In this document: positions 3,011-33,676 of the stretch, one piece after another | Layout of the letters: each line of letters opens with the position of its first letter | Position numbering within the stretch: the stretch's first letter is position 1 | Assembly: GCA_007134865.1 (NCBI GenBank) | Contig: SLJW01000114.1 | Span: 1-37,526, forward strand | Length of the DNA stretch: 37,526 nt | Reading direction: 5' to 3' | Origin: Paracoccaceae bacterium | GTDB lineage: Bacteria; Pseudomonadota; Alphaproteobacteria; Rhodobacterales; Rhodobacteraceae | Program-made: the position numbers and the translations under genes | Notes under the pieces: model-generated | Told to the model about the DNA's origin: nothing | Databases searched by the model: none | Seen by the model: only the letters and a program-made list of their open reading frames with translations

Positions 3011-3027
3011 GCGTCGACTCGCGTCAG
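3011..3027 (-). promoter_or_regulatory. Candidate operator CTGACGCGAGTCGACGC (read on minus strand)
   Basis: Two TGACGC-like half sites 10 bp apart, upstream of the CocE gene; matches two other sites in this module (see findings). Confidence 0.45.
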
Positions 3028-3109
3028 CCTCCGGCCGATGGCGCAATTGTGCCTTGCATCTGGCCATGTCGGTATATTCCAGAAATGCCTGCGCTGAGGG
3101 AGCCGCCAT

Positions 3110-5131
3110 ATGAGGGATCGCGTCCACCCGCCCGAGATCTCTGATCGCGATGTGTATGAGGTCCGCGACCCAGAATGGATCGAGATGCGTGACGGTACCC
3201 GTCTTGCCGCGCGCATCTGGCTGCCGCAGGATGCAATGGCACAGCCGGTGCCGGCGATCCTCGAATACCTGCCCTATCGCCGACGCGATGGCACGTTGGC
3301 GCGCGACGAACTGCATCATGCCTGGTTCGCGCGCAATGGCTATGCCGGGGTGCGCGTGGACATCCGGGGCAATGGCGACTCCGAAGGCGTCATGGAGGAC
3401 GAATACTCCGAGGAGGAGCTCGACGACGGCGTCCAGATCATTGAATGGTTGGCGCAACAACCTTGGTGCTCGGGTGCGGTCGGAATGATCGGTATCTCCT
3501 GGGGTGGGTTCAACGGGCTGCAGCTTGCCGCCCGGGCGCCCGAAGCGCTCAAGGCCGCAGTGACGATCTGCTATACCGACGACCGCTACGCTGACGATAT
3601 CCACTACATGGGCGGCTGCCTGCTGACCGAGAATATCGGCTGGTCGTCGCAGATGCTGGCCTATTCCTCGCGCCCGCCCGACCCCGATGTGGTGGGCGAG
3701 CGCTGGCGCGAGATGTGGCGCGCGCGGCTTGAACGGCAGCCGCTGCTGCTAGAGACCTGGCTGCGTCATCAGCGACGCGACGCTTATTGGCGGCGCGGAT
3801 CGGTGTGCGAGGACTGGGGCTCTGTCCGTGCGGCGGTCCTGGCGGTCGGTGGCTGGGCCGATGCCTATTCCAACGCGGTGCCGCGCACGCTGGCGGGCAG
3901 CCCGGCCCCGGTGAAGGGGATCGTCGGCCCCTGGGCGCACAAGTATCCCAACGTCGCATACCCCGAGCCCCGCATCGGCTTTCTGGCGGAGTGTCGGCAG
4001 TGGTTCGACCACTGGCTCAAAGGCACCGAAAACGGTGCCGAGGCGCTGCCCGCCTATCGTGCTTTCGTGATGGATTCGATACCGCCCGCACGCCGCATCG
4101 ACCACCGTCCGGGCCGCTGGGTGGCAGAGCCAGAGTGGCCATCGCCACGGATCGAGCACTGGAACCTGGCGCTTTCGGACGACACGCTCGGTGCGCAGGC
4201 TGGCAGGGCACCCATATCAGTTGGCGGACCGCAGACGCTGGGCGCGGCCGCTCAGCGGTTCTGCCCCGGGCTGCGTGATCTTTACGAGATGGCGGCGGAT
4301 CAGACCCCTGACGACGCTGCGGCCACGAGCTTCGACACCGCGCCGCTGGAGGGGGACGTAGACATCCTGGGCGCGGCCGAACTGCGCCTTCGGGTGACGC
4401 CAGACGCGCCCACCGGTTTCGTCGTTGCGCGGCTATGCGACCTGCGCCCGGACGGCACCAGCGCCTTCATAACCATGGGTGTGCTGAACCTCACCCATCG
4501 CAACGGGCATGACAGGGTGGAGCGGATGACCCCCGGCGTGCCAGTCGACGTGACCGTGGCCCTCAACGACATTGCCTATCGGCTGCCCGCGGGGCATCGG
4601 CTGCGGTTGTCACTGTCCACGAGTTATTGGCCGATTCTGTGGCCCGCAGCGGCACCGCTGAGCCTGCAGATTGACCCTGCGGCAAGCATGCTCGGCGTGC
4701 CGCTGCGCCCGGCGCTGGACGAGCCCGAACCGCAATTCGGCCCGCCCGAGGATCAGCGCGAGGGGGCGTCCGAAACCCTGCAGCCTGAGAGCTCGGAGCG
4801 CTGCGAGGACGTTCTGGCCGACGGCACGCGCCGGCTGCGCATCGTCACCGATGGGGGGCGCGAGCGGTACCGGTCCACCGGAGTGGAATCGGGCCGGCGT
4901 ATCGAGGAGACCTGGGACATCCACCCTGACGATCCGCTCACCGCGCGCATGGAGACGCGCTGGAGCTACGAGATTGGTCGCGGCGACTGGCAAACGCGCA
5001 CCGATTCGCGCACCGAGGTGACCTGTGATGCGACGCATTTTCACATTCGTGCGGAGCTGCGCAGCTATGAGGGTGGACGCCCCTTCGTGAACCGCGAATG
5101 GCACCTGAAGATCCCGCGCGACGGTGTTTAA
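3110..5131 (+). CDS. CocE/NonD family hydrolase (peptidase S15 / X-Pro dipeptidyl-peptidase-like)
   Basis: RDGTRLAARIWLP, RVDIRGNGDSEG, nucleophile elbow GISWGG, VGGWADAYSN, GPWAHKYPN; C-terminal jelly-roll region. Confidence 0.88.
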   Translation: MRDRVHPPEISDRDVYEVRDPEWIEMRDGTRLAARIWLPQDAMAQPVPAILEYLPYRRRDGTLARDELHHAWFARNGYAGVRVDIRGNGDSEGVMEDEYSEEELDDGVQIIEWLAQQPWCSGAVGMIGISWGGFNGLQLAARAPEALKAAVTICYTDDRYADDIHYMGGCLLTENIGWSSQMLAYSSRPPDPDVVGERWREMWRARLERQPLLLETWLRHQRRDAYWRRGSVCEDWGSVRAAVLAVGGWADAYSNAVPRTLAGSPAPVKGIVGPWAHKYPNVAYPEPRIGFLAECRQWFDHWLKGTENGAEALPAYRAFVMDSIPPARRIDHRPGRWVAEPEWPSPRIEHWNLALSDDTLGAQAGRAPISVGGPQTLGAAAQRFCPGLRDLYEMAADQTPDDAAATSFDTAPLEGDVDILGAAELRLRVTPDAPTGFVVARLCDLRPDGTSAFITMGVLNLTHRNGHDRVERMTPGVPVDVTVALNDIAYRLPAGHRLRLSLSTSYWPILWPAAAPLSLQIDPAASMLGVPLRPALDEPEPQFGPPEDQREGASETLQPESSERCEDVLADGTRRLRIVTDGGRERYRSTGVESGRRIEETWDIHPDDPLTARMETRWSYEIGRGDWQTRTDSRTEVTCDATHFHIRAELRSYEGGRPFVNREWHLKIPRDGV

Positions 5132-5149
5132 GCGCAGTGCGCCGCCTGC

Positions 5150-5166
5150 CTGACGCAACCTGACGC
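5150..5166 (+). promoter_or_regulatory. Candidate operator CTGACGCAACCTGACGC
   Basis: Perfect TGACGC-N4-TGACGC direct repeat in the promoter region of the XRE regulator. Confidence 0.5.
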
Positions 5167-5212
5167 GGTATTGTCTTGCGCTTTCGCGCCGCTGCGTTAG
5201 GCTGCGCGCGTC

Positions 5213-6040
5213 ATGGATCAGCCCAACCTCGCCCGCAACCTTCGCCTGCTTTGCAGCTATGCGCCGTCGATCTCGGCGGTATGTCGCAGCGTCGGCATCA
5301 ACCGGCAACAGTTCACCAAGTATCTCAACGGTGCCTCGCGCCCCTCGGCGCGGAACATGCGCCGGATCTGTGATCATTTCGGTGTCGAGGAGGATGAACT
5401 TCTCGCACCGCATGGACGCTTCGCCGAGATGATCTCGCTGCGTCCGCGCGCGCGTCACCTGATCCGGGCGCTTGGCCCGGCGGCCACGCATATCGACGCG
5501 ATGTTTACCCGCTCGGCCGAAAACCTGAAACCGTACTGTGGCTATTATTTCTATTACTACTACACCCCCTCACGCCCCGGAATGATCCGCCGGTCGCTAC
5601 TGCGCATCAACGAATACAAGGGCGTTTACTACACGCGGCTGACCGAACGCATCCAGCCTTCGGAGAGCCCGCTCGGTCGCTCGCATGTCGTGCGTTATGT
5701 GGGAGTTGCGGTGCTGCTGGGGGGGCGGATCTTCATTATCGACCACAATGCACGCGACCGGCGTTCGGTCTCGCAGACAGTGCTCTTCACCACGCAGTCG
5801 GGCGAGGTGGAGTTCCTCACCGGCATGACACTGGGCGTGCAGGGGCGCACCGCGCGCGCGCCCTTCGCGGCGCGGGTGTTCCTGGAATTTCTGGGCCGAC
5901 AGACCGATCTGCACGCCGCCGTCCGCCGCACTGGCATCTTCGACGCCGACGGCGCCGACCTGCCACGCCATATAGCACGAATGCTCGCCTCAAGCGGCAG
6001 CGAGCCGCAGATGCTCACGGCGCTGGAACTACCTATCTGA
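5213..6040 (+). CDS. XRE-family helix-turn-helix transcriptional regulator
   Basis: N-terminal HTH: LARNLRLLCSYAPSISAVCRSVGINRQQFTKYLNGASRPSARNMRRICDHFGVEEDELL; large C-terminal putative sensing domain. Confidence 0.82.
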   Translation: MDQPNLARNLRLLCSYAPSISAVCRSVGINRQQFTKYLNGASRPSARNMRRICDHFGVEEDELLAPHGRFAEMISLRPRARHLIRALGPAATHIDAMFTRSAENLKPYCGYYFYYYYTPSRPGMIRRSLLRINEYKGVYYTRLTERIQPSESPLGRSHVVRYVGVAVLLGGRIFIIDHNARDRRSVSQTVLFTTQSGEVEFLTGMTLGVQGRTARAPFAARVFLEFLGRQTDLHAAVRRTGIFDADGADLPRHIARMLASSGSEPQMLTALELPI

Positions 6041-6053
6041 CGCGATGTGACGC
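6037..6053 (+). promoter_or_regulatory. Candidate operator CTGACGCGATGTGACGC
   Basis: Perfect TGACGC-N4-TGACGC direct repeat overlapping the XRE gene stop codon, upstream of the ABC operon. Confidence 0.5.
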
Positions 6054-6164
6054 ACCCTTAGCGCAAACTGCCTGCGCGTTTGGACCTGCTGCGCAATTGT
6101 CTGACGACGGCATGGCCCGCACGCTTTCGCGAAAGAAAAATACCACATGACCGGGAGACTGAAG

Positions 6165-7745
6165 ATGCCCAAGACCGAAATGCACCGCGCCTTTCCCGTG
6201 CTGAACCGCCGCCAGTTGCTGGCTGGGGCCGCCGGGGTTTCTGCCGCCGCCATGCTGCCCGTGAAGGCCTGGGCGCAGGAAGGACGACTCAATATCCGCG
6301 TTTACACCGAGCCGGATGATTTCGACCCCGTCGATGCCTCGGGCTTCGGCGAGGCACTGCTCTACGGCGCAATCTACCGCAACCTGATCCAGTACGAATC
6401 CGGCGACGACTGGAGCTATCGCCTCGATCTGGCGGAGTCCATCGAGCAGACCAGCGACACCACCATCGAGTTCACCCTGAAGGAAGGGCAGATGTGGTCC
6501 GACGGCTATGGCGAGATCACCGCCGAGGATGTGGCCTTCACCTTCGAGCGCATCCTCGACCCGGAAATGAATTCGCGCATACTGCCCGATGTTGGCACGC
6601 TCAGCCGCGTCGAGGTGACGGGGCGTTATTCGGGGGTGTTCCACTTCGACGAGGCATTCGCGCCGTTCTGGTGGATCGCGCTGCCCTATCTGGCGGGGAC
6701 GATCGTGTGCAAGGCGGCGATCGAGGACGCCGGCGGGCGCATCACCACCGAAGTGCCGCCCACCGTTTCCGGTCCCTACCGCGTGCGCGAGTTGCGCCCC
6801 GGCGAGCGCTGGGTACTGGAGCGGAACGAAGACTACACCGGCGATATCCCGGCCGAGTACGAGCGTCTGGACATTGTCTATATCGGCGACGAGGCCGCCG
6901 CCGAGATCGCGCTGGAAGCGGGCGATCTGGACTTCACCGAAGTCAGCCCGGGATCAGTCGCGCGGCTGCAAAGCAACCCGCCCGCGGGCACCGCGATGTC
7001 GATGCACCCCTCGCTGTTCTATGTCTGGGTCGGCATGAACATGGAACACCCCAAGTTCCAGGACATCCGGGTGCGACAGGCGCTGCAATACGCGATCAAT
7101 GTCAATGCGATCATCGAGGCTGCGTGGTATGGCGTTGCCGAGCCCTCGACCGGGATTATCGCGCCAGGGCTGATCGGCAACCGTCCCGAATCGCTCATCC
7201 CGCCGCAGGGCGACCCGCAACGCGCGCGCGCTCTGCTGGAAGAGGCCGGTGTCGAGAACCTTGAGGTCACGCTCAACGTGCTTAACGACGTGACCTTCAC
7301 CACTGCCGCGCAGGTGATGCAGGCGACCATGGCGCAGGCGGGCATCCAGCTGAACATCGAGGTGCATGAATCGGGCTCGTTCTGGACGCTTGGCGTGGAG
7401 GCCGATGGCGACCGCTGGCGGGATCTGGAAATGATCATGAACCGCTTCTCGATGCTGCCCGACCCGTCCTACGCGACCGCCTGGTTCGTTACCGAACAGA
7501 TCGGTGACTGGAACTGGGAGCGTTTCTCGAATGAGGAGTTCGACCGCCTGCACCGCGAGGCAGGCACCGAGACTGACGACGCGCGCCGCGACGAGATGTA
7601 TCGCCGCGCTCAGGACATCATGGAGGAATCGGGCGCCTATCGGTTCATCACCCATGGCGTGACGCCGAACCTGTTTTACGACAACACGGTGCCGGGGACA
7701 CGCCCGGACGGGCTGCCGCTGGCGCAATACTTCCGCCGCGCCTGA
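6165..7745 (+). CDS. Peptide/nickel-type ABC transporter substrate-binding protein (family 5), Tat-type signal peptide
   Basis: NRRQLLAGAAGVSAAAMLPVKAWA signal; extracellular solute-binding protein family 5 pattern (YRNLIQYESGDDWSYRLDLAESIEQTSDTTIEFTLKEGQMWSDG...). Start at 6147 also possible. Confidence 0.88.
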   Translation: MPKTEMHRAFPVLNRRQLLAGAAGVSAAAMLPVKAWAQEGRLNIRVYTEPDDFDPVDASGFGEALLYGAIYRNLIQYESGDDWSYRLDLAESIEQTSDTTIEFTLKEGQMWSDGYGEITAEDVAFTFERILDPEMNSRILPDVGTLSRVEVTGRYSGVFHFDEAFAPFWWIALPYLAGTIVCKAAIEDAGGRITTEVPPTVSGPYRVRELRPGERWVLERNEDYTGDIPAEYERLDIVYIGDEAAAEIALEAGDLDFTEVSPGSVARLQSNPPAGTAMSMHPSLFYVWVGMNMEHPKFQDIRVRQALQYAINVNAIIEAAWYGVAEPSTGIIAPGLIGNRPESLIPPQGDPQRARALLEEAGVENLEVTLNVLNDVTFTTAAQVMQATMAQAGIQLNIEVHESGSFWTLGVEADGDRWRDLEMIMNRFSMLPDPSYATAWFVTEQIGDWNWERFSNEEFDRLHREAGTETDDARRDEMYRRAQDIMEESGAYRFITHGVTPNLFYDNTVPGTRPDGLPLAQYFRRA

Positions 7746-7768
7746 GGGTGCGCGGCAGGCGGTCTTAA

Positions 7769-7801
7769 TCGGCGCGGGCGCACGATAAGCGTCCGCGCCG
7801 A
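7769..7801. other. Intercistronic hairpin (13-bp stem, 7-nt loop) between SBP and permease genes
   Basis: TCGGCGCGGGCGC-ACGATAA-GCGTCCGCGCCGA; 12 Watson-Crick pairs plus one G.U. No U-tract follows. Confidence 0.8.
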
Positions 7802-7819
7802 ATTAGCCGGGGACACGGG

Positions 7820-8764
7820 ATGATCCAGTACACCATTCAACGCGTCGCGCTGGCGCTGGGCATCGTCTTCGTGGCGATCTCGGCCCTTTACGGCGTGATG
7901 ATCGCGCTGCCGGGGGATCCGACATCGGTGCTGCTGGGGCCGCGCGCCACGCCCGAGATGCGCGCGCTTTTCCGCGAGCAGATGGGCCTCGATGATCCGC
8001 TGGTGATGCAGATCCTGAACTTCTGGGGGCGTGTGCTGAGCGGCGATCTGGGCACGGATTTCTTCCGCAACCGCCCCGTGGCGACGGCGGTGATGAGCGC
8101 GCTGCCGCATACGGTCGCATTGGTTTTCGGGGCGATCTTCTGGTCGGCCACGCTCGGGATCCTGCTGGGCGCGTTCTCGGCGGATCGGCGCAACAGCCTG
8201 CTCGACCGCGTCACCGGTGTGATCTCGGTGGCCTTCATCGCCGCGCCGTCCTTCGTGGTGGCCCTCTATAGTCTGCTGCTGTTCGCAGTCACGCTGCGCT
8301 GGTTCCCCTCCATCGGCGCGGGCGAGCCGGGCGACCTGCTCAGCCGCATCCAGCATCTGGTGCTGCCATCGCTCGCGATCGGGCTGGCCTGGGTGGGCTA
8401 TGTGGCGCGGATCGTGCGCGCCTCGATGCTCGAGGCGATGGGCGAAAGCTACATCCGCACCGCGCGCGCCTTCGGCCTGCCGCGCCGGCGGGTGGTCTAC
8501 AACTATGCGCTGCGTGTGGCGATCCTGCCGGCGGTGCAGGTGCTGGGTGTGGGCATCGGGGGGATGCTGTCCAGCGCTGTCTTCGCCGAGATCGTCTTCT
8601 CCCGCCCTGGGATCGGCACGCTGATCTACACTTCCGTGTCGGACCGCAACTACCCGGTGGTGATGGGTGCGATGCTGGTGGCCATCGGCTTCTTCGTCAC
8701 CTGCGCGTTGATCGCCGACCTGATCAACGCCGCCCTCGACCCGCGCCACAGGAAGACGCAATGA
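7820..8764 (+). CDS. ABC transporter permease (DppB-like)
   Basis: MIQYTIQRVALALGIVFVAISALYGVMIALPGDPT...; EAA-loop region MLEAMGESYIRTARAFGLPRRRV. Confidence 0.9.
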   Translation: MIQYTIQRVALALGIVFVAISALYGVMIALPGDPTSVLLGPRATPEMRALFREQMGLDDPLVMQILNFWGRVLSGDLGTDFFRNRPVATAVMSALPHTVALVFGAIFWSATLGILLGAFSADRRNSLLDRVTGVISVAFIAAPSFVVALYSLLLFAVTLRWFPSIGAGEPGDLLSRIQHLVLPSLAIGLAWVGYVARIVRASMLEAMGESYIRTARAFGLPRRRVVYNYALRVAILPAVQVLGVGIGGMLSSAVFAEIVFSRPGIGTLIYTSVSDRNYPVVMGAMLVAIGFFVTCALIADLINAALDPRHRKTQ

Positions 8765-9609
8765 GCAGCTTCAGGCATACGCTGATCGGGCGGCTGACCC
8801 GCGACCCACTGGCTGTGATGGCCATCGTGATCATCGCGGCGCTGGTGGTGATGGCGGTCTTTGCTGACCTCATCGCCCCCTACGACTACACCGCCATGCA
8901 CATGACCGACCGCTTCGCCGCACCATCGGCGGAGTTCTGGCTGGGGACTGACAATCTGGGCCGCGATACGTTCTCGCGGCTGCTGCAGGGCGGGCGCATC
9001 GCGCTGACGGTCGGGCTGACGGCGGTGATCATCTCGGGGCTGATCGGGCTTGTGCTGGGGATGATCGCAGGCTTCGGGCCGCGCTGGCTGGACAATGCGC
9101 TCTTGTTCTTCTTCGACACGCTGCGCGCCTATCCGACCATCATCCTCGCGCTGGCGCTGGCCGCGCTGATGCCGCGCGGGCTGACCACGGTGATCGTGGT
9201 GGTGGTGATCACATCCTTCGCGGAATACGGTCGGGTGGTGCGCACACAGACGCTGTCGCTCAAGCATTCCGAGTTCATTCTGGCCGAGCGCGCGATGGGC
9301 GCCTCCTTCGGGCGGATCGTGTTCCACCACATCCTGCCCAACGTGCTGGGGCCGTTTTTCATCCTCGCGGCGATGAACCTGCCGGTGGTGATCACCATCG
9401 AGGCGGGGATGAGCTTTCTTGGCGTGGGCGTGCCGCCGGGCACGCCAAGCTGGGGCTCGACGCTCAAGGACGGGTTCGACCATATCCGCCAGACACCTTG
9501 GTTGATCCTTGCGGGCGGGTTGCCGCTGATCCTGGTGACTCTGGGCTTCACCTTTCTGGGCGAGGCGCTGCGCGATCAACTCGACCCGAAGCTCAGGAGC
9601 GGGCGATGA
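8761..9609 (+). CDS. ABC transporter permease (DppC-like)
   Basis: HWLGTDNLGRD-type motif (FWLGTDNLGRDTFSRLLQGGRIAL); 4-bp overlap with the preceding gene. Confidence 0.9.
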   Translation: MSSFRHTLIGRLTRDPLAVMAIVIIAALVVMAVFADLIAPYDYTAMHMTDRFAAPSAEFWLGTDNLGRDTFSRLLQGGRIALTVGLTAVIISGLIGLVLGMIAGFGPRWLDNALLFFFDTLRAYPTIILALALAALMPRGLTTVIVVVVITSFAEYGRVVRTQTLSLKHSEFILAERAMGASFGRIVFHHILPNVLGPFFILAAMNLPVVITIEAGMSFLGVGVPPGTPSWGSTLKDGFDHIRQTPWLILAGGLPLILVTLGFTFLGEALRDQLDPKLRSGR

Positions 9610-10580
9610 CGAACACACTGACCGTCAAGGACCTCTCGGTGAGCTACGATACCCGAACTGGTGCGTTGCAGGCATTACGCCACGTCTCGATTGACGTGCC
9701 CGCAGGCGAGATCGTGGGCGTGGTGGGCGAATCGGGCTGCGGAAAGTCCACCCTCATCGGCGCGCTGCTAAGTCTGCTGGCCGAAAACGCTCGCGTGGAT
9801 GGCGGCGAGATCCGCCTTGATGGTGAGGACATCCTGCGCGCTTCGCCCCGCAGGCTACAGGCGATGCGCGGGAACGAGATGTCGGTGGTGTTCCAGGATC
9901 CGATGACCTCGCTCAACCCGGTGCTCTCAATCGGACGGCAGATGCGCGACATCCAGTATCGCGAGAGTATCTCCGATGCCGAGAAGTCCCGCCGCGCTGC
10001 CGCGATGCTGGGCCGGGTCGGCCTGCCTGACCCCGAGGCGAAGCTGCACGCCTATCCGCATGAGCTGTCGGGCGGGATGCGCCAGCGGGTGGCCATCGCC
10101 ATGGCGGCGCTGATGGAGCCGAAACTTTTGATAGCGGACGAGCCGACCACCGCGCTGGATGCCACGCTCGAGGTGCAGATCATCGAACTGCTCAAGGAAA
10201 TCCAGCGCGAGATCGGCTGCGCGATCCTGTTCATTTCGCACCATCTGGGCGTGATCGCCGAGCTTTGCGACCGCATGGTGGTCATGTACGCCGGTGAGGC
10301 TGTCGAGGAAGGCCCCGTCGCGCAGGTCTTCCAGAGCCCGGCGCACCCCTACACTGCCAAACTGATCGAGTGCGACCCGGGCCGACTGCGCGAACGGGTC
10401 GAGTCACTGCCCGCCATCCCCGGCAGCTTGCCCGACCTGACCGATCCGCCCGCGGGCTGCATCTTTCGCGACCGCTGCGATATGGCCACCGAAATCTGCG
10501 CGCGTGTTGTGCCGCCACGTGAGACAGTATCGCCCGAGCACTGGTCGGCCTGCCACCATGCAAAGACGGTGAGCCCATGA
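9606..10580 (+). CDS. ABC transporter ATP-binding protein (DppD-like)
   Basis: Walker A GESGCGKST, signature LSGGMRQRV, Walker B LLIADEPTTALD; C-terminal oligopeptide-transporter extension with Cys residues. ATG 9606 overlaps the preceding stop. Confidence 0.92.
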   Translation: MTNTLTVKDLSVSYDTRTGALQALRHVSIDVPAGEIVGVVGESGCGKSTLIGALLSLLAENARVDGGEIRLDGEDILRASPRRLQAMRGNEMSVVFQDPMTSLNPVLSIGRQMRDIQYRESISDAEKSRRAAAMLGRVGLPDPEAKLHAYPHELSGGMRQRVAIAMAALMEPKLLIADEPTTALDATLEVQIIELLKEIQREIGCAILFISHHLGVIAELCDRMVVMYAGEAVEEGPVAQVFQSPAHPYTAKLIECDPGRLRERVESLPAIPGSLPDLTDPPAGCIFRDRCDMATEICARVVPPRETVSPEHWSACHHAKTVSP

Positions 10581-11575
10581 CATCCGACGCGCTGCTGGAG
10601 CTCAGGGACGTTACCGTGGAGTTTCCCGGCGCGCGCGGGCTGCGCGCCCTGACCGCCCCGCCCGAGGCTCGCCGCGTGCAAGCGGTCAGCGGCATCTCGC
10701 TGCGCGTCGACCGCGGCGAGACGCTTGCGTTGGTCGGCGAATCCGGCTCGGGCAAAACGACGCTGGCACGCGCGATCAACGGGTTGGTGCCGCTTGCGCG
10801 CGGCAAGGTGTGGTTCGACGGCCAGCCCCTGCACGCGCGCCCCGACTGGCACGCGGTGCGCCGCCGCGTGGCAATGATGTTTCAGGACCCGGTCGGCTCG
10901 CTCAGCCCACGCAAGACGGTGCGCGAGTTGATCCTGGAACCCTTTGCTATCCACGGCGTGCGGGTCGGCGACCGCAAGGCGCGGGCGCGCGATCTGCTGG
11001 CGGCGGCGGGGCTGGCGCCCGATTTCCTCGATCGCTATCCGCACCAGCTTTCCGGCGGGCAGGCGCGGCGCGTGGGCGTGGCGCGCGCGCTGGCGCTTGA
11101 TCCGGCGCTGGTGCTGGCCGACGAGCCCACCGCCGGGCTGGACGTGTCCATCCAGGGCGAGATCCTGAACCTGATGAACCGCGTCAAGCGCGAGCACGGG
11201 CTGACCACGCTGATCATCACCCACAACCTGAACATCCTGCGCCACATCGCCGACCGGGTGGCGGTGATGTATCTGGGCCGGATCGTCGAGATCGGCCCCG
11301 TGGAGCAACTGCTCAGCACCCCCGCGCACCCCTACACACGCGCGCTGATGGCCGCCAACCCCGAGCCCGACCCCACCGCGCGGCGCGAACGGATCGTGCT
11401 GGGCGGCGAGACACCGGCGCTGAGCGCACGCCCGCCCGGCTGCGAGTTTCACCCCCGCTGCCCGGTCGCGCGCGCCGATTGCGCCACGCGCGCGCCCGCC
11501 CTCGCCCCGGCCCGCACCGGTGGCGCGGTTTCGTGCCACTACCCGCTGGCCGCCGATGAGCGGATCGGCGCATGA
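10577..11575 (+). CDS. ABC transporter ATP-binding protein (DppF-like)
   Basis: GESGSGKTT, LSGGQARRV, LVLADEPTAGLD; 4-bp overlap. Confidence 0.92.
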   Translation: MTSDALLELRDVTVEFPGARGLRALTAPPEARRVQAVSGISLRVDRGETLALVGESGSGKTTLARAINGLVPLARGKVWFDGQPLHARPDWHAVRRRVAMMFQDPVGSLSPRKTVRELILEPFAIHGVRVGDRKARARDLLAAAGLAPDFLDRYPHQLSGGQARRVGVARALALDPALVLADEPTAGLDVSIQGEILNLMNRVKREHGLTTLIITHNLNILRHIADRVAVMYLGRIVEIGPVEQLLSTPAHPYTRALMAANPEPDPTARRERIVLGGETPALSARPPGCEFHPRCPVARADCATRAPALAPARTGGAVSCHYPLAADERIGA

Positions 11576-12999
11576 GCTACGGTCTTTACATCGGGCGGCG
11601 TCATACCGCCGACGGCATCGCCTATCTGGCTGGCTATGGCGACGAGCCCTCGGGTCACTGGCTGGAAGTTGCCGCGCGCCAGCGCCATGCGCCGGGCAGC
11701 ACCATCACCGTCGGTGTGACCCCGCAGGCCGACCTGCCCGGAGAGTTGAGCGAAATCCCCCAGGCGCCCGAGACAGCGCGGCTGATGCGCGTCAACTACA
11801 GCTACTACCTAGGGGTCCCCGCGCCGCTCACCAATGGCGGGCTCAACGAATACGGCGTGGCGGTGCGCGATATCTGGGCGCCTTCGCGCGCGGAGCTGGT
11901 GAAGGTGACCCCGCCCAACCAGCGCGGGCCGAATTATTCCGATCTGGCGCGCATCGTCGTGGAACGCGCGCGCACCGCGCGCGAGGGGGTGGAGCTGATC
12001 GGCGCGCTGATCGCGGAGCATGGCTATTCCAGCTATGGCGGCAATTCGCACATGATCGCCGACCCTGAGGAATGCTGGGTGGTGCAGGAGTTCGCTGGCG
12101 GGCACGGGCTGTGGGTGGCCGAGCGGTTCGGGGAGGATGCAATCCGTGCCTCGCGCCCCGGTTACATCCATGAAATCCCGCCCGAGCCGAATGCGGATTA
12201 CCGCTTTCCGCCGCATTTAATCGCCACCGCGGTGGAACTGGGCTGGTATGACCCGGCAGATGGCCCGTTCGACGTCAACCGCATCTATGGCGACGGCAAG
12301 GGTCGCTGGGAAGGTGTCGCCTGGATTGAGGATGAAATGCGCCAGCGCGCGGCACGCCCCGGGGGCATCACGCTTCAGGATGTGTTCTGGGCCATCCAGA
12401 CCGAGGTTCTGACCGGCGACACGGCGGGATACGGCCAGGTCGTCCCGCTGGAACACCCCGCCCATCCCGCGCTGCGGATGCTGTGGCACGCCCCGGTCGG
12501 CCCGGTGACCGCGCCACTGGTGCCGCTCTTTCTCGGCATGACTGAGGTGCCCCCCGAGTATCGGCGCCATCGCTACCTTGAACGCGGCGAAAGCGCGCGT
12601 TTCCTCGACACCCGCAAGGCCGGCGAAGACCCCGACACCGTTTCGCATGTGCCGCAGGGGGTCGAAGTGACGCGTTCGGCAGTGCAGGTCTTCAAGCGGC
12701 TGATGCATCTGGCGTTTCAGGCGCCCGAGCCGCAGTTCCGCGAAGTCTGGGACCACTGGCGCGCGCATGAGGCCGCGCTGATTGCGGATGCGCCGCAGTT
12801 GCGGCGCAGCGCGGAGATCCTGCTCGATGCGGGCGAGGCGGCTCTGGCGGCGCGGCTGCTGACGGATTTCGGCCGCACGCGGTTGCTGGCCGCTCTGGAC
12901 GAGGCCGAGGCGCTCGCCGATGCGTTGGAGGTCCGGTTGCGCTGCGCGGGTCGGCTGAACATGGAGTCGACGCCCGTCACGCCAAAGCAGATTTGGTGA
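11572..12999 (+). CDS. C69-family dipeptidase-like Ntn hydrolase, Ser2 in place of the catalytic Cys
   Basis: MSYGLYIGRRHTADG aligns to the C69 N-terminus (CTTILVGKKAxxDG); NEYGVAV, YSDLARIVVERARTAREGVELI, IADPEECWVVQ, WVAERF. 4-bp overlap with dppF-like gene. Confidence 0.82.
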   Translation: MSYGLYIGRRHTADGIAYLAGYGDEPSGHWLEVAARQRHAPGSTITVGVTPQADLPGELSEIPQAPETARLMRVNYSYYLGVPAPLTNGGLNEYGVAVRDIWAPSRAELVKVTPPNQRGPNYSDLARIVVERARTAREGVELIGALIAEHGYSSYGGNSHMIADPEECWVVQEFAGGHGLWVAERFGEDAIRASRPGYIHEIPPEPNADYRFPPHLIATAVELGWYDPADGPFDVNRIYGDGKGRWEGVAWIEDEMRQRAARPGGITLQDVFWAIQTEVLTGDTAGYGQVVPLEHPAHPALRMLWHAPVGPVTAPLVPLFLGMTEVPPEYRRHRYLERGESARFLDTRKAGEDPDTVSHVPQGVEVTRSAVQVFKRLMHLAFQAPEPQFREVWDHWRAHEAALIADAPQLRRSAEILLDAGEAALAARLLTDFGRTRLLAALDEAEALADALEVRLRCAGRLNMESTPVTPKQIW

Positions 13000-13164: not shown

Positions 13165-14412
13165 CTAGATAAGTAGCGGCAGATAGGCGATGAGCACCAG
13201 CACCAACACCAGCACGGCCAGGTAGGGCAGAACCGCCCGCGCGATCTGCTCCAGCCCCAGCCCGGTTACCGAGGACGCCACATAGAGGTTGATTGCCACT
13301 GGTGGCGTGATCATCCCGATGGCCAGCCCGACCACGATGATGATGCCGAAATGCACGGGGTCTATCCCCAGTTGCACGGCCAGCGGCAAGAGGATCGGGG
13401 TCAGGATGATAAGCGCCGAGGCCGTCTCGATGAAGATACCCGTGAGCAGGATCAGAAGCAGGATCAGCGCCAGCAGCATCCATGTGTTGGTTGACAGGCC
13501 CAGAACGGAATTGGCGATGGCAGAAGGCACCTGCCAGCTTGACAGCGCCCAGCTCAGCGCCGCCGAGGCAGAGATCACGATCATGATCACCGCCGTGGTG
13601 ACGGCAGACCGTATCAGCACATGGTAGAGATCGCGTAACGACAGGTCGCGATAGATGAAGAGTGCGACGAGTATTGCATAGTTGACGGCGATCACAGCTG
13701 CTTCCGATGGCGTGAAATAGCCCGAAAAGATGCCGCCCAGGATGATCACTGGCGTCATCAGCCCCCAGAACGCGGCGCAGAAACTGCGCCAGATGGTGCG
13801 CAGAGAGAAGGCGGCACCGCGCGGATAGGCCCTCCGATAGCCCTGCACCAGCGCAATCGCCATCAGCCCCACCCCCATGGCGATGCCTGGAATAATTCCC
13901 GCCAGAAACAGCCGCGCCACCGACTCCTGCGCGATAACGGCATAGATGATGATTGGCACCGAAGGCGGAATCACCACGCCGATGGTGCCGCTGGCTGCGA
14001 TGAGGCTGGCCGCTGAGGCCGGGTCGTAGCCCTTGCGCTTGAGTTCGGGGATCAGGGTCGAGCCGACCGCCGCCGTGGTGGCCGCGCCCGAGCCTGATAT
14101 TGCTGCAAAGAACATCCCCGCAAGCACCGAGACGATGGACAGCCCGCCGCGCAGGAATCCGAGCAGCGCCTCGGCCAGCGCCACCAGTCGCTCGCTGACC
14201 TGCCCCTTCGACATGATATCGCCGGCAAGGATGAACATCGGAATCGCCACAAGCGCGAAGGAGTTGATGCCCTGGAACATCTGCTGCGGCATGACCAGAA
14301 GCGGTGTGCCGGCCTGGTCGAGCGCGATCATCGTGCCTGCACCGATGGCCACCGCAATCGGCACCCCCATGGCAAGAAACAGCAGGAAGAGCGCGAAGAG
14401 AAGCAGGCTCAT
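13165..14412 (-). CDS. dctM: TRAP transporter large permease (DctM)
   Basis: MSLLLFALFLLFLAMGVPIAVAIGAG...FALVAIPMFILAGDIM, ASGTIGVVIPPSVPIIIYAV; ATGA overlap with the preceding DctQ gene. Confidence 0.9.
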   Translation of the reverse strand: MSLLLFALFLLFLAMGVPIAVAIGAGTMIALDQAGTPLLVMPQQMFQGINSFALVAIPMFILAGDIMSKGQVSERLVALAEALLGFLRGGLSIVSVLAGMFFAAISGSGAATTAAVGSTLIPELKRKGYDPASAASLIAASGTIGVVIPPSVPIIIYAVIAQESVARLFLAGIIPGIAMGVGLMAIALVQGYRRAYPRGAAFSLRTIWRSFCAAFWGLMTPVIILGGIFSGYFTPSEAAVIAVNYAILVALFIYRDLSLRDLYHVLIRSAVTTAVIMIVISASAALSWALSSWQVPSAIANSVLGLSTNTWMLLALILLLILLTGIFIETASALIILTPILLPLAVQLGIDPVHFGIIIVVGLAIGMITPPVAINLYVASSVTGLGLEQIARAVLPYLAVLVLVLVLIAYLPLLI

Positions 14413-14912
14413 TGCCCTGCGCCTCCTTGCATCGGCACCTTGCCGCCCACAAGCAGGCGCAGCAGGTCCGACAGCGCGAACCACGCCATCAGCGCTGCGC
14501 TGAGCGGGATCACGGTATAAACGCGTCCCATCGACAAGCGCAGCGCCGCCGAGCGCTGCCTGCCCTGTGTGCCCATGTAGTCCAGCCCCACCTTGACCAG
14601 CGCCACCATGAAGCCGATCACCACGACACAGGCCGCGATGCGCACAAGCCGCGCATAACCTACGGGCAGGGCATCGACCAGCGCGCCCACCGCGATGTGA
14701 CGATGCTGATGCCAGGCCAGCGCGGCGCCGAGAAAGGTGATCCAGATCACCAGAAAGCGCGAGACCTCTTCGGTCCAGCCCAGCGCCCGGAAGAACAGCC
14801 GCGAGCCGACCTGCAGCGAGATCGCGACGATCAGCGCCGCCATGAGAAAAAAGAGAACGGGGCGTAGCACCGCCCCGATCCCCTTGTCGATCAGGTCAAG
14901 CGCGCGCAGCAC
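14409..14912 (-). CDS. dctQ: TRAP transporter small permease (DctQ)
   Basis: 167-aa membrane protein with GWTEEVSRFLVIWITFLGAALAW motif, between DctP and DctM. Confidence 0.88.
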   Translation of the reverse strand: MLRALDLIDKGIGAVLRPVLFFLMAALIVAISLQVGSRLFFRALGWTEEVSRFLVIWITFLGAALAWHQHRHIAVGALVDALPVGYARLVRIAACVVVIGFMVALVKVGLDYMGTQGRQRSAALRLSMGRVYTVIPLSAALMAWFALSDLLRLLVGGKVPMQGGAGQ

Positions 14913-15911
14913 TTACTCGAGCGCCGAAAGGATCCGGCCGAGATACTCGCCATAAGCGTCGCCATAGCGTTCGTATATCGGCTGAACAGCCGCCTGAAAC
15001 GCAGCGAGATCGGCGTCATCCACAATCTCCATGCCGCGCTCACGCAGTTCTTCGAGTTGGCCTTCCTCCATTTCCATGTTGACCTGGCGGACATGGGCCG
15101 AAGCCTCACGCGCCGCCTCGACCAGCACGTCCTGCGCAGCCTCAGGCATCCCATCCCAGACACCTTGCCCCATCACGAAGATCGCCGGCGAATAGGTATG
15201 GCGCGAGAGGGTCATGTAGGTCTGAGTCTCGTCGAGGTTGAATGAGTGGATCACCCCGACCGGGTTTTCCTGCCCGTCGATGGTGCCCTGCTGCATGGCT
15301 GTCAGCGCCTCGGTCCAGGCCATGGGCTCGGCATTGGCGCCAAGCTCACGGAAGGTATCGACATAGACAGGGTTCTCCATCACGCGGATACGCATCCCGT
15401 CGATATCACCTGGCGCGCGCACCGGGCGCTGGCTGTTGGTGAGATTGCGAAAGCCGCGCTCGGCATAGGCCAGTCCCTTGAGATTGACCTCACTCAGCCT
15501 GTCCAGCAGTTCCTGGCCGATCTCGCCATCAAGAATGCTGTAGGCCTCCTCAGCGCTGGCGAAGAGGAAGGGCAGCTCGAACACTGCAATCTCTTCGAGA
15601 AAATTCGCCACCGGACCATTGGTGATCACGCCCATATCCACAGTGCCGATCTGCATGCCTTCCAGCAAGGTGCGCTCGTCGCCCAGTTCGGCATTGGGAT
15701 AGATTTCGATGGTGACAGCGCCCTCGGTGCGTTCCGCGACCAGTTCCTGAAACCGCGTTGCGGCGATGTGGAATGCGTCCTGCTCGTTCACGACATGGGC
15801 CAAACGCAGCGTGGTGGGGTCCATCTCGGAAAAATCGGCCATTGCCCAGCCTGCAGTGGTCATGGCCATGACTGCGCCTAGTGTCGTCGCTCTCGTCAGT
15901 GTATTGATCAT
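14913..15911 (-). CDS. dctP: TRAP transporter substrate-binding protein (DctP)
   Basis: Signal peptide; AHVVNEQDAFHIAATRFQELVAERTEGAVTIEIYPNAELGDERTLLEGMQIGTVDMG; RVMENPVYVDTFRELGANAEPM. Confidence 0.92.
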   Translation of the reverse strand: MINTLTRATTLGAVMAMTTAGWAMADFSEMDPTTLRLAHVVNEQDAFHIAATRFQELVAERTEGAVTIEIYPNAELGDERTLLEGMQIGTVDMGVITNGPVANFLEEIAVFELPFLFASAEEAYSILDGEIGQELLDRLSEVNLKGLAYAERGFRNLTNSQRPVRAPGDIDGMRIRVMENPVYVDTFRELGANAEPMAWTEALTAMQQGTIDGQENPVGVIHSFNLDETQTYMTLSRHTYSPAIFVMGQGVWDGMPEAAQDVLVEAAREASAHVRQVNMEMEEGQLEELRERGMEIVDDADLAAFQAAVQPIYERYGDAYGEYLGRILSALE

Positions 15912-28305: not shown

Positions 28306-28329
28306 GTATTTCTTTGAGAGAAAGTATAC
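28306..28329. promoter_or_regulatory. Candidate hyphenated inverted repeat in the divergent promoter region
   Basis: GTATTTCT-TTGAG-AGAAAGTATAC, with a further GTATATTTTTTTCT upstream at about 28282. Confidence 0.3.
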
Positions 28330-28397
28330 GCTGCAAGAGGGTGGAGCCTGGCAGCAAAAAGTCGCATCACGTGACTGGTATTCAGGGAGGAGAAAAT

Positions 28398-29525
28398 ATG
28401 ACCTGCAAATTCACCGGCGCGGCCATGCTGGGCGCGTCGCTTGTTGTAGCCAGTGCCGCACAGGCCGGCGATCTGCCGCGCTCGATGGTTTGGAGTTCCT
28501 ATGACGTTGGTAGTTCGGGCTATGTCGAGGCAAGCGCCATTGCCGATGCGCTGGCGCGGGCAGAGGATGTGCGCGTGCGCATCATGCCGTCCGGCACTGC
28601 CATCGGGCGAATGCTGCCGATGCGTACGGGTCGCGTCGATTACGGTTTTCTCGCCAATGAAGTCTTCTTCGCGACCGAAGCCATCTACGAGTTTTCAGCA
28701 CAGGAATGGGGGCCGCAGGATCTGCGTGTCCTGCTGGGACGTCCGGCAAGCTTCGGGATGGCCGTTGCGGGTGACGCCGGGGTAGACACGCTGGAAGACC
28801 TGCGCGGCAAGCGCGTCGCTTATGTGCAGGCCAATCCGTCTGTCAACATCAAGGTCGAGGCGATGCTTGCCCTGGCCGGACTGACATGGGACGATGTGGA
28901 TCGCATCGAAGTGCCGAGTTTTGCGGCCTCGACCCGCGGCCTTATCGAGGGCACGATTGATGCGGCCGGAACTGTCACCACGGGTGCTAATCTTTACGAG
29001 CTGGAATCCAGCGCGCGCGGCATTGTCTGGCCTGATCTCCCGCCTGAGGAAGATACCGAAGCTTGGGATCGTCTGCGCGAGGTCGCGCCCATCTTCGAGG
29101 CGATGAGCGAGCCGATCGGCGCGGGTCTTTCTGAGGACAACCCCGCGATCCTGATGTCCTATCGCTATCCGATGGTCACAGTTTATGCCGACCACGATGC
29201 CGATGAGGTCTATGCCATGACCAAGGCCATTGCCGAGCATTTCGACCTCTACAAGGATGTCAGTGCCGCAATGCCGCGCTGGAGTGTCGACCAGGCAGGC
29301 ATTCCGCCCACCGATGCGCCCTTCCATGAAGGCGCGATCCGCTATCTGACCGAGATCGGCGTCTGGACAGACGAGCATCAGGCGTGGAACGATGCGCGGC
29401 TGGAACGGTTGAACGCAGTCATCGAGGAATGGGAGAAAGCACAGGACGCCGCGCTCGAGCAGCAGATCCCCGGCAATCAATGGGCCGGCTTCTGGGCCGA
29501 TTGGCGGGACGAGAACCTGGACTGA
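28398..29525 (+). CDS. TAXI-family TRAP transporter substrate-binding protein
   Basis: Signal peptide; SSYDVGSSGYVEASAIADAL...VRIMPSGTAIGRMLPMRTGRVDYGFLANEVFF; LEDLRGKRVAYVQANPSVNIKVEAML. GGGAGGAG ribosome-binding site before ATG 28398. Confidence 0.87.
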   Translation: MTCKFTGAAMLGASLVVASAAQAGDLPRSMVWSSYDVGSSGYVEASAIADALARAEDVRVRIMPSGTAIGRMLPMRTGRVDYGFLANEVFFATEAIYEFSAQEWGPQDLRVLLGRPASFGMAVAGDAGVDTLEDLRGKRVAYVQANPSVNIKVEAMLALAGLTWDDVDRIEVPSFAASTRGLIEGTIDAAGTVTTGANLYELESSARGIVWPDLPPEEDTEAWDRLREVAPIFEAMSEPIGAGLSEDNPAILMSYRYPMVTVYADHDADEVYAMTKAIAEHFDLYKDVSAAMPRWSVDQAGIPPTDAPFHEGAIRYLTEIGVWTDEHQAWNDARLERLNAVIEEWEKAQDAALEQQIPGNQWAGFWADWRDENLD

Positions 29526-29535
29526 GCCCACTTTT

Positions 29536-29569
29536 GCCCGGCCAGTTTCGCAGCTGCGACTGGCCGGGC
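29536..29569. other. Intercistronic GC-rich hairpin between TAXI SBP and permease genes
   Basis: GCCCGGCCAG..CTGGCCGGGC outer arms with an inner TCGCAGCTGCGA palindrome. Confidence 0.75.
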
Positions 29570-29574
29570 TGTTT

Positions 29575-31563
29575 ATGCACAGGCAGACCGAGATGCAGGA
29601 AACCCGCGCAGAAGATCATTCCGCGGATGCGCCAGACACAGGCGCGTCCTCATGGGGCTGGCAACGGCAGGAAGGCCGACTGACAGGGGTCGCATGGTTC
29701 GTCGTGCTTGCACTTGGGTCGCTGGGCATTGTGCTGGTGGTAAACCAGATCTTTTCGCTCGCCCTGTTCGGTTTCAGACCGCTGTCAACGGCCTATTATT
29801 ACCTCGTGATCGCCCTGTTCCTGCCCGTGGCCTATCTCGCCTTTCCGGCGCGACAAGCGGATCAGGAACAAGTGCGCTGGTATGACTGGGCCCTCGCGCT
29901 TCTGGCGCTGGCGACTTGCGGTTATCTTGCATCTCAGGCTGTCAACATCATCACGCGTGGTTGGGATATCGACGCACCCCCATTGCCAACATCAGCCGGC
30001 GCGCTGCTGGTGCTTTTGTCACTGGAAGGGGTGCGGCGTTGCGGCGGAACAATCCTGTTCGTCATCTGCAGTGTCTTCGCGGTCTTCCCGCTCTTTGCCG
30101 ATCATATGCCGGGCGCGCTCTGGGGCACCCAATACACGGCACTGGAGGCCGCGCGCGCGCATGCAATGGGGGTCGAAAGCATCATCGGCATCCCGATGCG
30201 GATTGTCTCGGAATTGCTGATCGGTTTTCTGGTGTTCGGCTCGGCGCTGATCATCTCGGGAGGGGGCGCGTTCTTCATGAATTTCGCCATGGCGCTGATG
30301 GGCGGACGGCGGGGTGGCCCCGCAAAGGTCTCGATCCTGTCCTCGGCCTTTTTCGGCTCACTTTCGGGCAGCGTGATCTCGAATGTCATCTCGACCGGGG
30401 CCATGACCATCCCCACAATGCGCAAATCTGGCTATCCGCCGCATTACGCGGGCGCGGTCGAAGCTTGCGCCTCGACCGGGGGCACATTGATGCCGCCGGT
30501 GATGGGCGCTGTGGCTTTCATCATGGCTTCATTTCTGAATGTCAGCTACGTCAGTGTGATGGCGGCTGCCCTGGTCCCGGCAGTGCTGTTCTACATTGCG
30601 TTGATGCTGCAATCGGATTGCTATGCTGCACGCGTGGGGCTGAAGGGCCTGCCACGCGCTGCCTTGCCCCGGCTGGGCCCGGTGCTGCGGCAGGGCTGGG
30701 TCTATCTCGTCAGCCTTGGCGTTCTGGTCTGGCTTCTGATCGGCTACCGGATCGAATCGATGGCGCCCTTCTATGCCTCAGTGCTGCTGGTGCTGACAGC
30801 GATCTGGCTCAATCGTGGTGCAGGGCGCGTGCAGGTGGTGCTGGACCTGATCGTGGACGCAAGCCGCAATATCGGTAATCTGGTCGCGATCCTCGCCGGG
30901 ATCGGACTGGTGGTGGGCGCGCTCTCGATCACCGGGGTCGGCACGGCGTTTTCGCGCGAACTGGTCAATCTCGCAGGCGGCAATGTATTCCTGCTGCTGA
31001 TCCTTGGGGCGCTGACCAGTTTCATCCTCGGCATGGGTATGACGGTCAGCGCCTGCTACATTTTCCTTGCTATCGTACTGGCGCCGGCGCTGGTGCAGGC
31101 CGGGTTGAACCAGATGGCCAGCCATATGTTCATCCTCTATTGGGGGATGCTCAGCTTCATCACACCGCCAGTGGCGCTGGCGGCTGTCGCAGCCTCGGGC
31201 ATCGCGCGGGCGCGGCCGATGCAGACAGCCTTCACCTCCATGCGTTTGGGATTGCCGCTTTTCCTGCTGCCCTTCATGTTCGTGCTGAACCCGGCCCTTA
31301 TCCTGCAGGGCGAGACGGCGGCCATCGTGCAGGCTGTCGGCACAGCGCTGGTCGCGATCTGGATGCTGTCATCCGGGCTGGAGCGCTATGCATATTTCGC
31401 AGGGGTGCTTGATCGCAAGATCGCTGCGCTGATCTTTGTCGGTGGCCTTGCGCTTATCGTGCCGGAATGGCGCAGCGACCTTGCAGGGCTGACCCTGCTG
31501 GCGCTTGGCTACGCGTTGCGCCTTGTGTTTCCGCCTACCCCTCAACCAACGGAGAATGTCTGA
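29575..31563 (+). CDS. TRAP transporter fused permease (4TM/12TM)
   Basis: 662 aa; LLIGFLVFGSALIISGGGAFFMNFAMALMGGRRGGPAKVSILSSAFFGSLSGSVISNVISTGAMTIPTMRKSGYPPHYAGAVEACASTGGTLMPPVMGAVAFIMA. Confidence 0.9.
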   Translation: MHRQTEMQETRAEDHSADAPDTGASSWGWQRQEGRLTGVAWFVVLALGSLGIVLVVNQIFSLALFGFRPLSTAYYYLVIALFLPVAYLAFPARQADQEQVRWYDWALALLALATCGYLASQAVNIITRGWDIDAPPLPTSAGALLVLLSLEGVRRCGGTILFVICSVFAVFPLFADHMPGALWGTQYTALEAARAHAMGVESIIGIPMRIVSELLIGFLVFGSALIISGGGAFFMNFAMALMGGRRGGPAKVSILSSAFFGSLSGSVISNVISTGAMTIPTMRKSGYPPHYAGAVEACASTGGTLMPPVMGAVAFIMASFLNVSYVSVMAAALVPAVLFYIALMLQSDCYAARVGLKGLPRAALPRLGPVLRQGWVYLVSLGVLVWLLIGYRIESMAPFYASVLLVLTAIWLNRGAGRVQVVLDLIVDASRNIGNLVAILAGIGLVVGALSITGVGTAFSRELVNLAGGNVFLLLILGALTSFILGMGMTVSACYIFLAIVLAPALVQAGLNQMASHMFILYWGMLSFITPPVALAAVAASGIARARPMQTAFTSMRLGLPLFLLPFMFVLNPALILQGETAAIVQAVGTALVAIWMLSSGLERYAYFAGVLDRKIAALIFVGGLALIVPEWRSDLAGLTLLALGYALRLVFPPTPQPTENV

Positions 31564-31566
31564 CGC

Positions 31567-33666
31567 ATGACCGCGCCTGTCACTTATAGCCGCGACGGCG
31601 ATATCGCCGCCATCTGTATCGACAACCCGCCCGTCAACGCGATGGGGGCGGATGTGCGCGCGGCCCTTGTCTCGGCTTTCGAGGAATTCTCCGCAGACAG
31701 CGCCGCCCGAATTGCCGTGCTCTATGGCACGGGGCGGACCTTCGTCGCGGGGGCCGATATCCGCGAATTCGGCAAGACCCCGAAAGAGCCGCTGCTGCCC
31801 GACCTGATCAATCGAATAGAGGCGCTGGACAAGCCAGTACTTTGCGTCATGCACGGCAGCACGCTGGGCGGTGGGCTGGAACTGGCAATGGGCGCACATG
31901 TCCGGCTGGGCCTGCCGGGGCTGAAACTGGGGCTGCCCGAAACCAGTCTCGGTATCCTGCCCGGTGCCGGGGGCACTCAGCGCCTGCCGCGCCTGGCCGG
32001 TATGGAGGCTGCGCTTGAGATGATCGTCTCGGCCCGGCATGTCGGTGCGGAAGAAGCACGCGCGCTCGGTATTCTTGATGCGCTGGCTGATGAGGGGGCC
32101 GAGCCCCTGGCCGCCGGGCGCGAAATGGCCGCGCGCCTGCTGTCCGAGGGGGTCGCGCTGCGCCGCACCTGCGATCTGCCTGCCCCGGAAATCATGGCCG
32201 AGAAGCTGGCCGAAATCCGCGCGTATGCGGTGAAACGCTACCCGGGTCAGATCGCGCAACTGACAGCGATTGACGCTGCGATCGAGGGGGCAGCGCTGCC
32301 CTTTCACGACGGTGTAAAACATGAACGCAGATTGTTCATGCGCCTCATAGAAAGCCCTCAGCGCGCGGCGCTGATCCATGCCTTCTTTGCCGAACGCAAG
32401 GTTGCGCAACTGCCCGAACTCGCCGGGATTATCCCGCGCCCACATGGGCAGATCGGGGTCATCGGCGGCGGGCGCATGGGCAGCGGCATCGCGGTTGCGG
32501 CGCTGCTTGCCGGGTTGGACGTGACGCTGATCGAGCGCGATGCCGAGGCTGCGGCCATTGCGCAGGCGGCCGTCGCCCAGACGCTGGGCGAGAGCGTCAA
32601 GCGCGGCAAGCTTTCCAAGGACAAGCGCGCTCACATCCTGTCGGAGAGTTTTCGCGCCGCACATGACCATGCCGCACTCGCCGAATGTGACGTCGTGATC
32701 GAGGCTGTGTTCGAGGATATGGAGATCAAGCGCGACGTTTTCCGCGCGCTCGATCAGCATTGCAGGCCGGGCGCCGTGCTGGCGACCAATACCTCCTATC
32801 TGGAAATTCCACAGATCGCCGCAGCCACTTCCCGCCCGGCAGATGTGCTGGGGCTGCATTTCTTCTCGCCCGCGCACGTCATGCGGCTTCTGGAAATCGT
32901 TGTCCCCGAAGGGACGGCGCCTGATACCGTCGCGACCGGCTTCGCGCTTGGCAAGAAACTACGCAAGGTGTCGGTACGGGCCGGTGTGTGTGACGGATTC
33001 ATCGGCAATCGCATCCTTCAGGTCTATCGCGCCGCTGCCGATCACATGGTACTGGCCGGGGCCAGCCCCTATCAGGTCGATCAGGCTGTCACCGGTTTCG
33101 GTTTTCCGATGGGGCCCTATGCAGTGCAGGATCTGGCCGGGCTCGACATCGGCTACATGACCCGCCAACGCAAAGCCGCCACCCGCGATTCGCGTGAATT
33201 CGTCCCGCGCTGGGGCGATGTGATGCATGAGCGCGGCTGGTACGGGCGCAAGACACAGCAGGGGTACTACAGCTACGGCCCTGACCATCCACGTGGCGCC
33301 CCCTCTGCAGAAGTCGAGGAGATCATAGCCGCCGAGCGTGCTGAACGCGGTGTCACGCCCCGCAGCTTTACCGACGAGGAGATCATCGCGCGATATATGG
33401 CCGCCATGGTGAACGAGGCTGCGAAAGTCGTGGGAGAAGGCATTGCCGCTCGCCCGCTGGACGTCGATGTGACCCTGCTGCATGGCTACGGCTTTCCACG
33501 CTGCCGCGGCGGGCCGATGCATTGGGCCGATACGCAGGGGTTGGAGAGCCTCTTGCACCAGATCGAGGGGTTTCAGAACGAGGACGCCTATTTCTGGCAA
33601 GCCGCGCCCCTGCTGCAGGAACTGGTCGCCAAAGGCGCCACCTTCGCCAGCCTGAACGAGACATGA
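31567..33666 (+). CDS. Bifunctional enoyl-CoA hydratase / 3-hydroxyacyl-CoA dehydrogenase (FadB/FadJ-like)
   Basis: N-terminal ECH (TFVAGADIREFGK, MHGSTLGGGLELAMGAHVRLG) and C-terminal HAD (IGVIGGGRMGSGIAVAALLAGLDVTLIERD, LGLHFFSPAHVMRLLEIV, GFIGNRIL). Confidence 0.92.
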   Translation: MTAPVTYSRDGDIAAICIDNPPVNAMGADVRAALVSAFEEFSADSAARIAVLYGTGRTFVAGADIREFGKTPKEPLLPDLINRIEALDKPVLCVMHGSTLGGGLELAMGAHVRLGLPGLKLGLPETSLGILPGAGGTQRLPRLAGMEAALEMIVSARHVGAEEARALGILDALADEGAEPLAAGREMAARLLSEGVALRRTCDLPAPEIMAEKLAEIRAYAVKRYPGQIAQLTAIDAAIEGAALPFHDGVKHERRLFMRLIESPQRAALIHAFFAERKVAQLPELAGIIPRPHGQIGVIGGGRMGSGIAVAALLAGLDVTLIERDAEAAAIAQAAVAQTLGESVKRGKLSKDKRAHILSESFRAAHDHAALAECDVVIEAVFEDMEIKRDVFRALDQHCRPGAVLATNTSYLEIPQIAAATSRPADVLGLHFFSPAHVMRLLEIVVPEGTAPDTVATGFALGKKLRKVSVRAGVCDGFIGNRILQVYRAAADHMVLAGASPYQVDQAVTGFGFPMGPYAVQDLAGLDIGYMTRQRKAATRDSREFVPRWGDVMHERGWYGRKTQQGYYSYGPDHPRGAPSAEVEEIIAAERAERGVTPRSFTDEEIIARYMAAMVNEAAKVVGEGIAARPLDVDVTLLHGYGFPRCRGGPMHWADTQGLESLLHQIEGFQNEDAYFWQAAPLLQELVAKGATFASLNET

Positions 33667-33676
33667 GGAACCCGCA

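Follow-up and report, generated by a model that had tools for sequence, protein, structure and literature searches.

Three units of a peptide/amide gene module are each preceded by a similar operator-like element, which raises the question of whether the XRE-type regulator encoded in the module binds there and, if so, in what arrangement and to what effect. The window, by which we mean the whole stretch of DNA analyzed, comprises 37,526 nucleotides of a Paracoccaceae contig (SLJW01000114.1), in which xre sits between cocE and the sbp-dppBCDF-C69 operon (6147-12999; Table 1). A sequence-only reading had placed a 17-bp CTGACGC-N4-YGACGC element before each unit, and all three (3/3) are present, at the positions and on the strands given in Table 1. 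That reading proposed a genome scan as a check. The motif turned out not to be common: the genome (271 contigs, 3.08 Mb) contains three exact matches, all at the module sites. The idea of a self-contained regulon thus fits this genome, with no exact site outside the module. Allowing one mismatch gave 33 additional genome sites, most of these 33 in coding-like frames, against 20 for a reversed control pattern; a wider regulon in the same genome was therefore rejected. Within the window alone, 11 sites with up to two mismatches were found compared with 6.4 expected, an unremarkable number. Since the motif was drawn post hoc from these same three sites, genome rarity alone proves little, and the real evidence is independent conservation.

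Table 1 Predicted genes and regulatory elements of the module, in window coordinates.
Feature	Position	Strand	Details
cocE-promoter operator (predicted)	3011..3027	minus	CTGACGCGAGTCGACGC; orientation opposite to gene; ortholog sites at about -76 to -109
Predicted cocE promoter	3041..3075	plus	GCGCAATTGT; -35 TTGTGC (3047-3052), 17-bp spacer, weak putative -10 CGGTAT (3070-3075)
CocE/NonD family hydrolase	3110..5131	plus	Peptidase_S15 + PepX_C
xre-promoter operator (predicted)	5150..5166	plus	CTGACGCAACCTGACGC; ortholog sites at about -55 to -62
Predicted xre promoter	5176..5203	plus	Putative -35 TTGCGC (5176-5181) and -10 TAGGCT (5198-5203); directly 3' of operator
XRE-type regulator, 275 aa	5213..6040	plus	HTH about 1-65; beta-strand-rich uncharacterised C-terminal domain about 110-247
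sbp-dpp operon operator (predicted)	6037..6053	plus	CTGACGCGATGTGACGC; kept at 11/12 or better in 16/16 independent orthologs
Third half-site, inverted	6061..6066	minus	7 bp downstream of sbp pair; GCGCAA here (4/6), GCGTCA in many orthologs
Predicted sbp promoter	6091..6125	plus	GCGCAATTGT; -35 TTGTCT (6097-6102), 17-bp spacer, putative -10 CACGCT (6120-6125)
Family 5 solute-binding protein	6147..7745	plus	SBP_bac_5, twin-arginine-like signal
DppB-type permease	7820..8764	plus	
DppC-type permease	8761..9609	plus	
DppD-type ATPase	9570..10580	plus	
DppF-type ATPase	10577..11575	plus	
C69-family dipeptidase	11572..12999	plus	Last gene of the operon

Many Rhodobacteraceae share the gene order CocE-XRE-SBP-DppBCDF, as do Stappia, Hongsoonwoonella and the gammaproteobacterium Nitrincola alkalilacustris; XRE identities range from 56 to 99%, and the C69 dipeptidase is present in those Rhodobacteraceae loci that reach far enough. 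Across Rhodobacteraceae, Stappiaceae and Nitrincola alkalilacustris, the whole CocE-XRE-SBP-Dpp module is 56-76% identical. One genome sampled from the window's own genus (G180) had no XRE match and no motif. The module is likely to have spread by horizontal transfer. Many of the module-bearing Rhodobacteraceae are sediment metagenome bins. Outside the conserved module, a Crp/Fnr-type regulator gene with a cNMP-binding domain (PF00027 and PF13545; 2041-2817) lies directly upstream of cocE, a TRAP transporter (DctM, DctP) occupies 13165-15911, and a second cluster at 28314-34876 contains an NMT1-like binding protein, a DctM-type permease and acyl-CoA metabolism genes.

Conservation was assessed in 16 orthologous loci, with near-identical loci left out. 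A TGACGC-N4-TGACGC site matching at 11/12 positions or better was found in all 16 sbp promoters, in 8/14 cocE promoters and in 6/16 xre promoters. When spacings of 0-12 were scanned in these promoters, a peak appeared at N4 only, and TGACGC (together with its complement) ranked first of 180 letter permutations in each of the three promoters. The alignment of orthologous promoters, also proposed in the sequence-only reading, thus shows a conserved site with a unique spacing. Pooling 45 sites yielded the consensus CTGACGCGANNTGACGC, in which G at position 2 is invariant in both half-sites. At the xre promoter, several orthologs have only a degenerate site and Stappiaceae and Nitrincola have none, so any autoregulation is not universal. 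Conservation of the sbp operator is partly coding, because the first TGA of its leading half-site (6038-6040) doubles as the XRE stop codon, an overlap seen in 15/21 loci, namely the window and 14 of 20 orthologous loci.

The operators also hold fixed positions relative to the predicted promoters. At cocE, where the tandem pair is opposite in orientation, a 13-bp gap to the 11-mer NGCGCAATTG is kept in nearly all orthologs including Nitrincola; the 11-mer NGCGCAATTGN likewise stands 13 bp away from Rhodobacteraceae to Nitrincola. The sbp operator is separated from TGCGCAATTGC by a fixed 35-36 bp in most orthologs, and the TTG of TGCGCAATTGC is compatible with a -35 element, followed some 17 bp later by a weak -10. 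About 30 bp upstream of GCGCAATTG, the promoters of cocE and sbp alike have a GCGTCA-like half-site, oriented the same way in both. In the xre promoter of most orthologs, the operator is followed at 7-9 bp by CTTGC, a predicted -35 element. The -10 predictions are weak. A second shared string, GCGCAATTGT, had been read as a further regulator motif, and it is indeed found at 3041-3050 and 6091-6100, with the weaker GCGGTATTGT at 5165-5174. Its role as a second operator did not hold up and was rejected: the genome contains 72 copies of GCGCAATTGY, too many for a specific operator, and the string takes the -35 place at fixed spacing. GCGCAATTGT is best read as the predicted -35 region in the promoters of cocE and sbp. 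The 72 copies, against one for a reversed control, are a strong over-representation in their own right. The composite pattern GCGTCA-N24-GCGCAATTGY with three mismatches was too loose for use.

The placement of the sites ahead of the predicted -35 elements, in a constant helical phase, makes it likely that the XRE protein activates cocE and the dpp operon. The XRE protein would probably also autoregulate its own promoter. The main competing explanation is that it binds the same sites but represses all three units until released by a peptide/amide ligand. Most characterised XRE regulators are repressors, and among the distant homologs a site can lie between the predicted promoter and the xre start codon; several such sites stand just before the start codon, which suggests autorepression in those homologs. 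However, the window and the orthologs have all three sites placed ahead of the predicted -35 elements, with a spacing that is fixed even across classes, and we regard general repression as possible but rather unlikely.

Whether the XRE protein itself owns the sites can be judged from its more distant relatives. Of 40 promoters belonging to distant XRE homologs (identity mostly 33-43%), 18 carry a site that reaches 10/12 or better at N4, compared with 0-5 at other spacings. In ten more XRE promoters from other alphaproteobacterial families, collected after the 40-promoter result, the mean score was 9.6 at N4 versus 7.7-8.4 elsewhere, and TGACGC again came first. A search of 397 family genomes for TGACGCDANNTGACGC gave 43 exact matches, 10 of them at most about 6 kb from an XRE homolog; the remaining 33 come close to the reversed-control count of about 28. 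In 20 XRE-carrying genomes, a manual tally placed 26 of 56 exact matches in the XRE neighbourhood, where about 0.2 were expected. The same site accompanies XRE homologs of 29-40% identity beside other gene sets: SBP_bac_3 transporters with AstE/AspA-type deacylases in Vibrio and Marinomonas, an amidase in Roseicyclus, and TPP enzymes or a GMC oxidoreductase in other genomes. For the Vibrio homologs (36-39% identity), which reside in lower-GC DNA, sites matching at 12/12 positions precede SBP_bac_3 genes. One genome with a 29% identical XRE protein (G179) has four exact sites, of which two on different contigs (C5:83791 and C19:32058; loci L136 and L135) share 39/40 upstream bases, a pattern resembling duplication of a promoter segment.

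The association with homologs, the varied neighbours, the lower-GC Vibrio genomes and the absence of both XRE and motif from G180 together tie the site to the XRE protein rather than to its target genes or to base composition. The three sites are thus very probably operators of the adjacent XRE protein, as judged from these comparisons. It is very improbable that the sites belong to a different regulator, for example the Crp/Fnr-type protein encoded next to cocE or a global factor. The Crp-type gene is directly upstream of cocE, but among the fetched loci it is retained only in the near-identical L039, while the sites persist; with synteny lost, it was rejected as the owner. Moreover, the motif lacks the TTGAT-N4-ATCAA palindrome, a global factor would show more than three exact genome sites, and the site accompanies XRE homologs into unrelated gene neighbourhoods. 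A chance or compositional origin of these repeats in a GC-rich genome is scarcely credible, despite the unexceptional two-mismatch count in the window, given that they are conserved between modules of 57-75% identity and even between classes, that their spacing is unique and their permutation rank first, and that exact sites occur in lower-GC Vibrio genomes.

The tandem geometry extends beyond the TGACGC sequence. In a motif-free test for 7-base direct repeats in 52 divergent XRE promoters, a period of 10 gave 27 promoters with at least 6/7 matches and nine with 7/7, whereas other periods from 7 to 25 gave 1-13 and 0-2, respectively. The half-sites vary among these promoters and include TGACGC, TTCGCG, TTAAGC and TTATGC. 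The period-10 excess with differing half-sites therefore suggests that the one-turn tandem layout is a trait of the family, within which half-sites drift. This variation suggests that the recognition helix and the half-site co-evolve. Tandem repeats of 10 bp with half-sites other than TGACGC (TTATGC, TTAAGC, TTCGCG) were seen at the XRE homolog loci L152, L155, L158, L139, L034, L013 and L017. The view that the sites are direct repeats and not palindromes stands in its first part, with half-sites one helical turn apart, but needs amending at the sbp operator, where most orthologs add an inverted third half-site to give TGACGC-N4-TGACGC-N7-GCGTCA. This inverted GCGTCA, 7 bp after the tandem pair, matches at 5/6 or 6/6 in 13/16 orthologs.

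The regulator itself has a Cro/C1-type DNA-binding domain. Its helix-turn-helix passes the Pfam cut-offs of HTH_31 (PF13560, 31.3 bits against a cut-off of 27), HTH_26 (PF13443, 30.5 against 22) and HTH_3 (PF01381, 23.3 against 23), and is unusually conserved (INRQQFTKYLNG). No Pfam or NCBIfam model matched the C-terminal domain, and a PDB sequence search gave nothing convincing. An AlphaFold2 model (pLDDT 81, pTM 0.63) places the HTH at the N-terminus, followed by eight main C-terminal strands. The best PDB fold matches were to a retinol-binding protein (E 2.4e-3) and to a designed barrel (E 5.5e-3), with none below 1e-3; the HTH structures of ClgR and C.AhdI were also among the fold matches. 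On the strength of this model, the C-terminal domain may be a lipocalin-like barrel that acts as a sensor.

Our combined reading, which we hold to be quite probable, is that the XRE protein binds the three sites head-to-tail, activates cocE and sbp-dpp, and autoregulates; in it, direct binding, assembly, direction of control and ligand are all inferred. The HTH would recognise TGACGC(GA) half-sites, and two subunits would sit head-to-tail on half-sites 10 bp apart, with a further subunit able to occupy the inverted half-site 7 bp downstream at the dpp operon. Bound XRE would then activate cocE and sbp-dppBCDF-C69, and at its own promoter could serve as either activator or repressor. The barrel-like domain might sense a peptide or amide akin to the transported substrate. 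A broader proposal is tentative and, in our estimate, doubtful: that these proteins form a widespread one-component family of Alpha- and Gammaproteobacteria, combining a Cro/C1 HTH and a lipocalin-like barrel with tandem half-sites of 10-bp period and an optional inverted third box. In such a family half-sites would drift against a constant head-to-tail geometry, and the ligand might shift the protein between tandem and inverted occupancy, thereby turning peptide/amide uptake on.

XRE proteins are usually seen as small palindrome-binding repressors; the subfamily described here appears to use one-turn tandem repeats, an activator-like placement and a predicted small-molecule barrel. The recurrence of the tandem site with relatives of the regulator in distantly related bacteria suggests that a binding rule exists for this regulator family, on which little work has been done. 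With this operator rule, XRE regulons could be predicted in many genomes, orphan CocE, Dpp, amidase and AstE/AspA-type genes are linked to one sensor family, and a direct route toward the XRE ligand is opened. In open-access papers, searches on the motif, on direct repeats in XRE systems and on CocE/XRE brought up no account of this system.

Several known systems resemble it in part. As in other XRE-type systems, half-site operators lie near the putatively regulated genes, including the xre promoter, where the site is not universal. Lambda CI/Cro and ClgR share the Cro/C1-type HTH but bind palindromes, whereas the core here is a tandem direct repeat, with an inverted third half-site at the sbp operator only. 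SinR of Bacillus, which represses biofilm genes, is an XRE protein that binds tandem repeats; its half-site differs from the one found here and it is not known to carry a beta-barrel domain. OmpR/PhoB-type activators bind head-to-tail to direct repeats that are spaced by roughly one turn and precede the core promoter. This likeness is one of mode only, their winged-helix domain, receiver domain and half-site being unrelated to those of the XRE protein. In MocR-type operators, two direct boxes and one inverted box are the commonest arrangement, and PdxR activates its target while repressing its own gene (PMC5320631). Direct and inverted boxes also meet at the sbp promoter, an analogy of mode only: MocR/PdxR proteins combine a GntR-type HTH with an aminotransferase-like domain, neither of which was found by Pfam or NCBIfam in the XRE protein, which pairs a Cro/C1-type HTH with a predicted beta-barrel. 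MocR direct repeats are also spaced by whole helical turns, although these are described as two or three (PMC5320631), compared with the single turn that separates the XRE half-sites here.
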